Shown piece after piece: positions 53,916-56,764 of a stretch of DNA of 59,192 bases. Below the pieces are notes generated by a model that was given only the letters and a program-made list of their open reading frames with translations, did not search any database and was not told the DNA's origin. Every line of letters begins with the position of its first letter. Positions within the stretch are counted from its first letter, which is position 1. Origin of the DNA: an uncultured Rhodobiaceae bacterium (lineage in GTDB: Bacteria; Pseudomonadota; Alphaproteobacteria; RS24); assembly GCA_937876775.1 (NCBI GenBank), contig CALEFA010000006.1, positions 1 through 59,192 of the forward strand, written 5' to 3'. The translations under genes and the position numbers were made by a program.

Positions 53916-54467
53916 ATGCAGAAGTTCTTTGTGCTTGCGAGTCTGATTTTTAGCCTAACCAATATCGCATCTGCGGCGCCGGATAGCGGCACGCTTGAGC
54001 AATTTTCTTTGCCGTCTATTGACGGTGGAACACTAGATTTGGCGCAGTTTAAGGGCAAAACGGTGCTGATCGTTAACACCGCTTCGCAATGCGGTTTCAC
54101 CCCGCAATATGACGGTTTGCAGAGCCTTTGGGAAGAATATCAAGGCCGTGGCTTTGTGGTTCTGGGTATTCCCAGCAATGATTTCGGCACCCAAGAGCCC
54201 GGCAGTAAGGACGAGATCAAGGAATTTTGCAGCGTCAATTTCGATATTGATTTTCCGATGAGTGACAAGCTGGTTGTCAAAGGCGATGGGGCGCATCCGC
54301 TTTATCAATGGTTGCGTGCCGAATTGGGCAAAGGCAGTCAACCAAAATGGAATTTTTACAAATATCTAATCAATGCCGAGGGCAAGCCAGTGACTTACTT
54401 CTCATCAATGACCAAGCCAAATTCTTCGCGCTTGCGCAAAGCCATCGAAGCCAATTTGGTTAATTAG
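53916..54467 (+). CDS. Glutathione peroxidase family, exported
   Basis: Thiol peroxidase with a signal peptide (MQKFFVLASLIFSL, cleavage after SAA or ASA). Peroxidatic cysteine in VNTASQCGFTPQY near residue 61 (Cys, not selenocysteine), Gln in FGTQEPG, and Trp in PKWNFYKYL. 183 residues. Reduces hydroperoxides in the periplasm, probably with thioredoxin-like donors. It ends 8 bases inside the convergent photolyase half gene. Confidence 0.9.
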   Translation: MQKFFVLASLIFSLTNIASAAPDSGTLEQFSLPSIDGGTLDLAQFKGKTVLIVNTASQCGFTPQYDGLQSLWEEYQGRGFVVLGIPSNDFGTQEPGSKDEIKEFCSVNFDIDFPMSDKLVVKGDGAHPLYQWLRAELGKGSQPKWNFYKYLINAEGKPVTYFSSMTKPNSSRLRKAIEANLVN

Positions 54468-54891
54468 CCCCATTGATATCAAATGCGGTTTTGCGCGCTT
54501 GGTTCCAGTAGCGGAAAAACCTTTTCAAATCAGCTGGCCCCTCTAGGGTCACAAATGGTTCATCGTCAACTTGCTGCAGTTCATGGGTGGCACTGAGTTT
54601 TTGCATGATTTGTTGCAAGGCTGGATTGGGTGTAGAGCCAGTGACAATCTTCTGAGCCAGCGCCGTTTCGGCCAGTTGCCCAATGCGCTTTGCCGTATCG
54701 CCGCGATAAATATCGACCGGCAAGTGGCATATGGTTTCATATAAGAACACCCGCCGTTTCAGACTATAACCGGCCATGTCAAAATAATTGTCATCCCAAA
54801 TGAAGACGGCGGTTGCGTCCTCGCCGGCGTGTTCAAATACCGGATGAGTGGCGCGCAGCATATCTTCGTGAAACCATATTAAATCAGCCAT
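54460..54891 (-). CDS. Photolyase/cryptochrome-like N-terminal alpha/beta domain encoded alone
   Basis: Opens with LIWFHEDMLRATHPVF, a clear variant of the photolyase start WFRxDLRxxDxxAL, then AVFIWDD and GYSLKRRVFLYETICHLPVD with YRGD, matching the antenna-binding domain. 143 residues, then the protein stops; it has no FAD domain. The gene starts inside the last 8 bases of the FAD-domain gene, which is upstream in the same transcript. So the two halves of a photolyase are separate proteins in reversed genetic order. It may bind an antenna cofactor and dock to the other half (inference). Confidence 0.75.
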   Translation of the reverse strand: MADLIWFHEDMLRATHPVFEHAGEDATAVFIWDDNYFDMAGYSLKRRVFLYETICHLPVDIYRGDTAKRIGQLAETALAQKIVTGSTPNPALQQIMQKLSATHELQQVDDEPFVTLEGPADLKRFFRYWNQARKTAFDINGAN

Positions 54892-55681
54892 TTAGCGCCT
54901 CGCTATGGGGGAATAATCCGGCGGCAAGAGCGTCATAACTATCGTCGAAATCGGCGTTATCATCAGCGGCGCAAGGAGCCACGGAACCGGCAAATTTTTG
55001 TAAATTCTCAAGGTTGAAAAAATATGGCTTATTGGCAAATGTGCTGGCCACCCATTGGAAAGACAGATTATTGCTCGCCGGGTCGCCATCTAAAAGGTGG
55101 GTAAGGAAAAATTGCGCTCCTGCCTGCCATGCGATATGGCGCCAATGAACAATATAAGCAGCTAAATACATGCGCGCGTGATTGTGCAGGTAACCGGTGT
55201 CGATTAATTGCTTGATGAAAAAATTCATCGCGGCGCTTGGGGTGCGGGCTTGGCGGATATCGTCAGGTAAAACGGTGGCATAATGGTTGGCTGGGTAGCC
55301 GGTTTTATAAGGCTCTATATCGCGCCAGATTTTAGCTGGTGACTGATGATAAATCCGCTGCCAAAAATCGCGCCAAGCAAGTTCTTGGACGAATTTTTCT
55401 ACCTGTTTAGGCGCCCCCTGCTGAATGGCTAGATTGCGGGTTTCGTTCAGCGTCACAATGCCGTGGCGAATATACGGCGATAAATAAGATACCGCCCCGT
55501 CGAGATAATTGCGGGTGCTGCCATAGGCCTGCGCGTCGAGCTGGGCCAAACGTGCGGCGCCGGCTTGACGTCCCCCTTCTGTCTGGCTGATGGGCTCGTC
55601 GGCAATCTCTGGCGAGAGGGCGCGCACATAGTCAATGAGGGCGCCACGGTCAGCGAAATCTTTTAGCAGTTTCTCTGTCAT
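54884..55681 (-). CDS. Photolyase/cryptochrome FAD-binding catalytic domain encoded alone
   Basis: 265 residues equivalent to the C-terminal half of photolyase. Signatures in order: YGSTRNYLDGAVSYLSPYIR, ELAWRDFWQRIYHQ, TGYLHNHARMYLAAYIVH, and LLDGDPASNNLSFQWVAS, the FAD-binding core. No alpha/beta antenna domain is attached; translation begins about 35 residues before the core. The antenna-like domain is encoded by the next gene, overlapping by 8 bases. Likely role is light-driven repair of UV lesions or a photosensor; which lesion is unknown. A sequencing frameshift does not explain it, because domain order is inverted. Confidence 0.85.
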   Translation of the reverse strand: MTEKLLKDFADRGALIDYVRALSPEIADEPISQTEGGRQAGAARLAQLDAQAYGSTRNYLDGAVSYLSPYIRHGIVTLNETRNLAIQQGAPKQVEKFVQELAWRDFWQRIYHQSPAKIWRDIEPYKTGYPANHYATVLPDDIRQARTPSAAMNFFIKQLIDTGYLHNHARMYLAAYIVHWRHIAWQAGAQFFLTHLLDGDPASNNLSFQWVASTFANKPYFFNLENLQKFAGSVAPCAADDNADFDDSYDALAAGLFPHSEALNG

Positions 55682-55810
55682 CTATCAGAGATAATGCGAT
55701 GGCAGGTTTCGTCCAGTTGGCATGATGTTTTTCATTGGCAGACGGGCGTGAATATGGTTTGTCTTGGCTTCTATCGAAAGCCAGTTTCATCAGCTGGAGT
55801 GGGGGCAAAC

Positions 55811-56764
55811 ATGTTCACATCACTGGGGGTGATTGCCCCCGTTATCGCTATTATTGCGACCGGATTTTTGGCGGCTTTGTTTGGCCTGTTTTCGGCGCAA
55901 CAAGTCGCCACCATGAACCGCATCGTTTTCTTGATTGCTGCGCCGGCTCTGCTGTTTCGTAATGTCGTTCTGACCCAAATTCCTGAGCTGGTCCCCTGGG
56001 GTTTGTTCATTTCCTATTACGGCGCCATGTTTATCTGTCTCGCGATGTCGCTGATCATCAGCCTTGTGGTGTTTGCTCAGCGCCGACAAGCCGAGCGGGT
56101 GATTATTGCTTTCGGCAGTTGTTTCTCCAATACGGTGATGTTGGGGATACCGATTATTTTGACGGCTTTTGGTGCAGCGGCCAGTCTGCCTTTGTTTTTA
56201 ATTTTGGCGTTTCATGGGCTTTTGGTGTTCAGCGTCGGCACATTTCTATTGGAGTTAAGCACTCGCCCGCAGATAGATTGGCGCCGGCTTGGCCCAGAGT
56301 TTCTGCGCAGCATGGCCAGCCAGCAGATTATGATTGCCTTATTGGCGGGCGTGATTTGGAATTTTACCGGCATTGGCCTGACCCCAGTGGTTGACCAATT
56401 TCTGGAGCTATTGGGTCAGGCGGCCATTCCCTTAGCTTTATTGGCGGTCGGCGGCCTGCTGGCGCGCACACCTTTTCGCGCCTCATTGTCGGGGGCTGCT
56501 TACATGAGTGTTTTTAAATTAGTGTTGATGCCGTTGATGGTTTTTGCCAGCGCCCGCTATTTGTTTGATTTACCGCCGATATGGGTGGCCAGCATTACGG
56601 TTCTGTCGGCCATGCCCACTGGCGTGTTCACCTCAGTGTTTGCCAGTCGTTATCAGGCAGCCGAACAAGAAGCCTCAAGTGCCATTGCCTTATCCAGCGT
56701 CGCTGGCATTGTGACCATTTCGGCATGGTTGATTTTTTTTCAGGATTTGGTCATCACACCGTAA
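55811..56764 (+). CDS. AEC (auxin efflux carrier) family permease
   Basis: Inner-membrane transporter with about ten spans in two five-span halves: FTSLGVIAPVIAIIATGF, NRIVFLIAAPALLFRN, SCFSNTVMLGIPIILTAFG, and C-terminal ASITVLSAMPTGVFTSVFAS. Bacterial AEC proteins move small carboxylates or amino acids. The ATG at 55811 has GGAGTGGGGG upstream; the frame upstream is hydrophilic and not conserved. 317 residues, normal. Confidence 0.88.
   Translation: MFTSLGVIAPVIAIIATGFLAALFGLFSAQQVATMNRIVFLIAAPALLFRNVVLTQIPELVPWGLFISYYGAMFICLAMSLIISLVVFAQRRQAERVIIAFGSCFSNTVMLGIPIILTAFGAAASLPLFLILAFHGLLVFSVGTFLLELSTRPQIDWRRLGPEFLRSMASQQIMIALLAGVIWNFTGIGLTPVVDQFLELLGQAAIPLALLAVGGLLARTPFRASLSGAAYMSVFKLVLMPLMVFASARYLFDLPPIWVASITVLSAMPTGVFTSVFASRYQAAEQEASSAIALSSVAGIVTISAWLIFFQDLVITP

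Follow-up and report, generated by a model that had tools for sequence, protein, structure and literature searches.

A split photolyase-like gene pair of reversed domain order and without Fe−S cysteines in an uncultured Rhodobiaceae bacterium

The window, a stretch of 59,192 nucleotides from an uncultured Rhodobiaceae bacterium, carries two overlapping genes for the two domains of a photolyase, arranged in the order opposite to the canonical one: the FAD-binding catalytic domain is encoded first and the antenna-type domain second. Judging from sequence comparisons, the pair probably encodes a two-subunit enzyme of the Phr4/Phr5 (Phr6) type that uses light to repair DNA. The layout itself was published in 2022 (mBio) for picocyanobacteria, in which it occurs either split, as phr4/phr5 of marine Synechococcus, or fused, as phr6 of Cyanobium (PMC9426592). 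Nostoc punctiforme is said to carry the same gene set, the phr4/phr5 pair of strain RS9916 raised the UV-C survival of phr-negative E. coli, and a phr4 mutant was sensitive to UV-C (PMC9426592); for this enzyme type, light-dependent UV protection is published for RS9916 alone. New here are the wider distribution of the pair, its obligate character, junction evidence for separate subunits, and an Fe−S-free variant.

The gene pair and its FAD-binding subunit

The features of the locus are as follows.

55681-54884, minus strand: gene 1, FAD-binding catalytic subunit, 265 aa, ATG start
54884..55681, minus strand: type of gene 1, Phr4 or short photolyase-like and Fe−S-free, by PF03441, PDB matches, orthologues, and clade
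54891-54460, minus strand: gene 2, antenna-type subunit (photolyase N-terminal alpha/beta domain) of the Phr5 type, 143 aa, ATG start
54884..54891, minus strand: 8-base overlap ATGGCTGA, comprising the gene 2 start codon and the gene 1 stop codon
55058..55060, minus strand: codon for Phe208 in gene 1, which aligns with the FAD-proximal Trp W390 of S. elongatus photolyase
55682..55810, no strand assigned: intergenic stretch upstream of gene 1, ending at the likely true start of a divergent AEC-type permease gene

The two reading frames given in the first-pass annotation are exact, both on the minus strand with 8 shared bases, and its total of about 408 residues is correct (265 aa + 143 aa = 408 aa). 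Purifying selection acts on both genes (dN/dS of 0.06 for gene 1 and 0.18 for gene 2, against the relative locus L003); with their conservation as a pair, this places the occurrence of the pair far beyond chance. Gene 2 also overlaps tail-to-tail, by 8 bases (54460-54467), with a glutathione peroxidase gene on the plus strand (53916-54467), and relatives such as L005 show a comparable overlap of tails. On the other side, the AEC-type permease frame (55694-56764, 356 aa) probably has an over-extended start: in relatives the homologous region starts at residue 37-40, which leaves ~130 bases up to the photolyase pair. The promoter of the pair would be expected within 55682..55810; a promoter and terminator consensus scan returned sites no more numerous than in shuffled sequence and no promoter in this stretch.

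Gene 1 belongs to the photolyase/cryptochrome FAD-domain superfamily, matching PF03441 (FAD_binding_7) with an E value of 2.3e-20 and class I photolyases in the PDB (1tez/1owl) with an E value of about 3e-19. In Synechococcus elongatus photolyase numbering, it keeps the equivalents of Y228, S241, L243, S244, E283, W286, R287, N349, R352, M353, D380, D382, N386, and W392, so that the FAD-contact residues are conserved with the exception of T240, W280, and A385, which are replaced by Val, Phe, and Ser, respectively. The residues for contact with and repair of cyclobutane pyrimidine dimers (CPDs), namely E283, W286, N349, M353, N386, and W392, are all retained. The residue at the W390 position is Phe in each of the nine window-family sequences and Trp in all 11 other members. 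The Fe−S cysteines of RS9916 Phr4 are C169, C254, C257, and C263, spaced by 85, 3, and 6 residues (PMC9426592). All four are present in L038 to L040 and in the Deinococcus members described below, with a spacing equal to that of RS9916 in L039 and L040 and near it in the others, while the gene 1 protein has only one of the four left; by this comparison, the window lineage has lost the Fe−S cysteines.

Because the Fe−S site is absent and the FAD-proximal Trp is replaced, the activity of the window enzyme need not match that of the published Phr4 and Phr6 proteins, and the Phe at this position means that photoreduction of FAD may go by another path. The Fe−S site is the published ground for predicting (6-4) activity of Phr4 (PMC9426592); its loss, together with the retained CPD contacts, would favor repair of cyclobutane dimers over that of (6-4) products. 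In the mechanism that we propose, a single message would carry both genes, gene 2 would be translated by ribosomes terminating on gene 1, and the catalytic subunit from gene 1 and the small antenna-type subunit from gene 2 would associate into a photolyase-like heterodimer. The small subunit would bind a light-collecting cofactor or else stabilize the catalytic subunit, and excited reduced FAD would pass an electron to the UV lesion. A cofH-type FO synthase was not detected in the window's genome, which makes 8-HDF produced by the cell itself an unlikely antenna cofactor.

Cryptochromes generally arose from photolyases through loss of repair, and the pair might analogously be a light or redox sensor in which repair was lost along with the Fe−S site and the FAD-proximal Trp. 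The missing cysteines and the Phe at the W390 position would fit such a sensor, as would the two further photolyase-family genes kept in the same genome: contig C31 encodes a canonical class I-like photolyase of 476 aa, and contig C34 a protein of the DPRP/FeS-BCP type. We nevertheless regard a sensor as unlikely, since every one of the six CPD-contact and catalytic residues is retained and no gene for a signalling or DNA-binding output adjoins the pair.

Two separate proteins or a frameshift fusion

The junction ATGGCTGA is that of the window's genus and recurs in L003 and L005, and a like 8-base overlap occurs in L037. Most other relatives have 4-base or 1-base junctions (ATGA, GTGA, TGATG, TAATG) at which gene 2 has its own start codon, and in L038 the two genes are separated by a gap. 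In the window's genus, the frame of gene 2 is shifted by +1 with respect to gene 1; in genus g5 of the same family, the shift is the opposite one. Because the junction frames differ between genera, two separate proteins appear likelier than a frameshift fusion.

The alternative is that programmed +1 frameshifting near the gene 1 stop codon joins the two frames into one reversed-order, Phr6-like polypeptide. Such a mechanism has been raised as a possibility for Synechococcus, fusions with this domain order do occur in Deinococcus and in Cyanobium (as Phr6; PMC9426592), and gene 2 of the window indeed lies in the +1 frame. Conserved programmed frameshifting does not, however, fit the junctions as a set: the frame is reversed in g5, one relative is gapped, the relatives share no slip sequence, and most junctions supply a start codon of their own. 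One polypeptide is thus improbable, and the arrangement fits coupled termination and reinitiation, by which translation of gene 2 would be tied to that of gene 1 through the overlap. The roughly equal synthesis of the two subunits suggested at first pass is plausible, given that junctions of the termination-reinitiation type are found in nearly all relatives.

The antenna-type subunit and the distribution of the pair

Clear photolyase signatures had been ascribed to both halves at first pass. This holds for gene 1 but not for gene 2, which matches PF00875 with an E value of only 0.041, below the Pfam cut-off, has no PDB match, and by itself falls below the cut-off in every family library searched. 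We therefore compared a profile of gene 2 and its relatives with one built from ten canonical photolyases, restricted to their N-terminal domains. The match to the canonical antenna domain had a probability of 96.2% (E value of 2e-9) over 136 columns, nearly the full length, against at most 2.2% for 50 column shuffles and 0.7% for the reversed profile; the probability was 4% against the FAD domain and 3 to 12% against the Z-domain of NewPHL-type proteins. In the alignment, the gene 2 start motif WxHxDxLR falls on canonical WFRQDLR and the end motif FFxYWNK on VFTPFWK. By these comparisons gene 2 encodes a rather short domain of the antenna type. AlphaFold models made for the individual subunits, with two-sequence alignments, had a mean pLDDT of 44, too low to be informative.

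Pairing was examined with an antenna profile over 385 alphaproteobacterial genomes and then, independently, with a FAD-subunit profile. The latter singled out ten genomes at 391 to 438 bits, with the next matches at 176 bits or below, where single-gene proteins of NewPHL length came first and canonical ones lower; this profile was partly built from genomes of the antenna search, although lone relatives of the FAD subunit would still score equally. The same ten genomes contain a full antenna match, and the FAD and antenna genes are adjacent in 10 of 10. An eleventh antenna match, in genome G237, is weak (E value of 3e-4), contains internal stops, and is most likely due to chance. No further case came from 398 genomes drawn from the phylum, and no lone FAD half was found among the 385 alphaproteobacterial genomes, the 398 phylum genomes, or the plasmid records. 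Among plasmids, the FAD type occurs in four Deinococcus records, all four with the antenna domain: three encode fused FAD-first proteins (456 to 472 aa) and one a split pair with a 4-base overlap. That gene 2 is an unrelated small protein adjoining a short photolyase by chance could be argued from its subthreshold scores in the family libraries; it is highly improbable in view of the profile match (96% versus at most 2% for shuffles), the fusion of the same FAD domain to an antenna domain in Deinococcus, and the co-occurrence of the two gene types in all ten genomes.

Genera g1 and g5 of the window's family have the pair, whereas searches of the g3 and g4 genomes did not find it. The order glutathione peroxidase-pair-AEC-type permease is conserved between g1 and g5; in g4 the peroxidase and permease genes adjoin with no trace of the pair in between, while in genome G001, of the window's own genus, the permease is present and both the peroxidase and the pair are missing at the locus. 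From these loci, the pair appears to come and go as a unit. The pair is also found in several other alphaproteobacterial families. That the reversed domain order is real, and neither a frameshift break nor an assembly error, as had been proposed, is borne out by its recurrence at the same locus in two genera. The first-pass annotation had suggested that the pair might be sought in relatives and that a single fused gene there would point to an assembly error. The pair does recur, in g1, g5, other Alphaproteobacteria, and Deinococcus plasmids, and fusions do exist in Deinococcus, but these are likewise FAD-first, lie at another locus, and come from distant bacteria, and so give no sign of such an error. 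An artefact of assembly or sequencing, conceivable for a draft genome of 80 contigs, can be set aside almost entirely because the pair occurs in independent genomes of two genera and several other families.

Several individual loci deserve mention. Most g3 and g4 genomes (L015 to L021) encode a 412-aa, FAD-first single protein of the NewPHL type elsewhere than at the pair locus, as if one FAD-first enzyme stood in for the other. In L014 (1489-2208, genome G023), the FAD gene ends early, at 239 aa and ~60 bases before the antenna gene, possibly through a frameshift or assembly error. Genome G765 of g5 has two antenna-subunit matches on separate contigs (L058, L064) and a listed contamination of 4%. 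A small-genome family (~1.4 Mb; L041, L042, L043) has a very short Fe−S-free pair of 244 to 245 aa and 131 aa. The Persicobacter megaplasmid pPP1 (L050, 1863-3038) encodes a 391-aa FAD-first protein whose C terminus, FFAFWKKCKK, is similar to that of gene 2, and a second photolyase frame, of canonical order, comes immediately after it; the 391-aa protein is possibly another fused form, in Bacteroidota.

Two candidate origins were rejected. A split of a NewPHL gene does not account for the pair, as the second domain of the 412-aa proteins does not match gene 2 and these proteins stand outside the peroxidase-permease locus. A viral origin was dismissed because IMG/VR scans gave no relatives and a phage search gave only distant photolyase matches (~30% identity).

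Relation to known photolyases and wider meaning

In a tree of 44 FAD domains, which did not include picocyanobacterial Phr4, the window protein falls into a Phr4-type clade (support of 96/97) that is sister to the NewPHL type (100/100) and separate from the canonical photolyases, although the tree has long branches. This placement agrees with the published closeness of Phr4 and Phr6 to Phr7 (PMC9426592). Compared by published description, the window pair and Phr4/Phr5 (Phr6) share a FAD gene that comes first with the antenna-domain gene adjacent and second, FAD domains nearest the clade of single-stranded-DNA photolyases (Phr7/NewPHL), and relatives fused in the same order; the relatives L039 and L040 also have the four Fe−S cysteines at the RS9916 spacing. 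Unlike all published Phr4 and Phr6 proteins, however, those of the window family have no Fe−S site, and they carry Phe at the W390 position; further, the published separation is a fixed seven G-C pairs, while the window has an 8-base overlap and relatives vary. Because the Fe−S cysteines are missing, we classify the pair as a variant of Phr4/Phr5 rather than a full member. The first-pass reading of a local rearrangement or one-off invention gives way here to an inherited pair, whose lineage was known before from picocyanobacteria (phr4/phr5), and the earlier interpretation as a whole is partly supported.

Other photolyase types resemble the pair less closely. Short photolyase-like (SPL) proteins (Xu et al. 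2021), as characterized in PMC9649867 and PMC9178010, lack an antenna alpha/beta domain and were proposed as family ancestors. Gene 1 alone fits this description; the window differs in that the next gene encodes an antenna domain and in the lack of Fe−S cysteines. The NewPHL/Phr7 single-stranded-DNA photolyases (Emmerich et al. 2020), described in PMC9426592 and PMC13274461 as a FAD domain followed by a Z-domain, share the FAD-first order, and their FAD domains form the sister clade. Gene 2 and the second domain of these proteins do not align, the window has no fused C-terminal Z-domain, and each NewPHL member found here is a single gene rather than two. The canonical class I-like photolyase on contig C31 is homologous to the pair in both domains, in contrast to which it has the opposite domain order in a single, longer gene and a FAD domain in a separate clade.

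These findings take the split photolyase of reversed order beyond cyanobacteria, into several alphaproteobacterial families and Deinococcus, and the varying junction frames together with the obligate pairing provide comparative evidence for separate subunits, a point left open in 2022 (PMC9426592). Since short photolyases have their antenna domain, in every genome examined, either in the adjacent gene or joined to their C-terminal side, the view of them as primitive, antenna-less ancestors is weakened. It is tempting to go further and assume that short photolyases in general work only together with a second subunit, as parts of a two-subunit light enzyme, that the antenna subunit was overlooked because its family scores fall below cut-off, and that the window lineage is an Fe−S-free branch whose subunits stay separate and assemble after synthesis; taken jointly, these propositions are tentative and somewhat less likely than not. 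With a natural two-piece photolyase, what the antenna domain contributes could be tested directly, by supplying one subunit or leaving it out.
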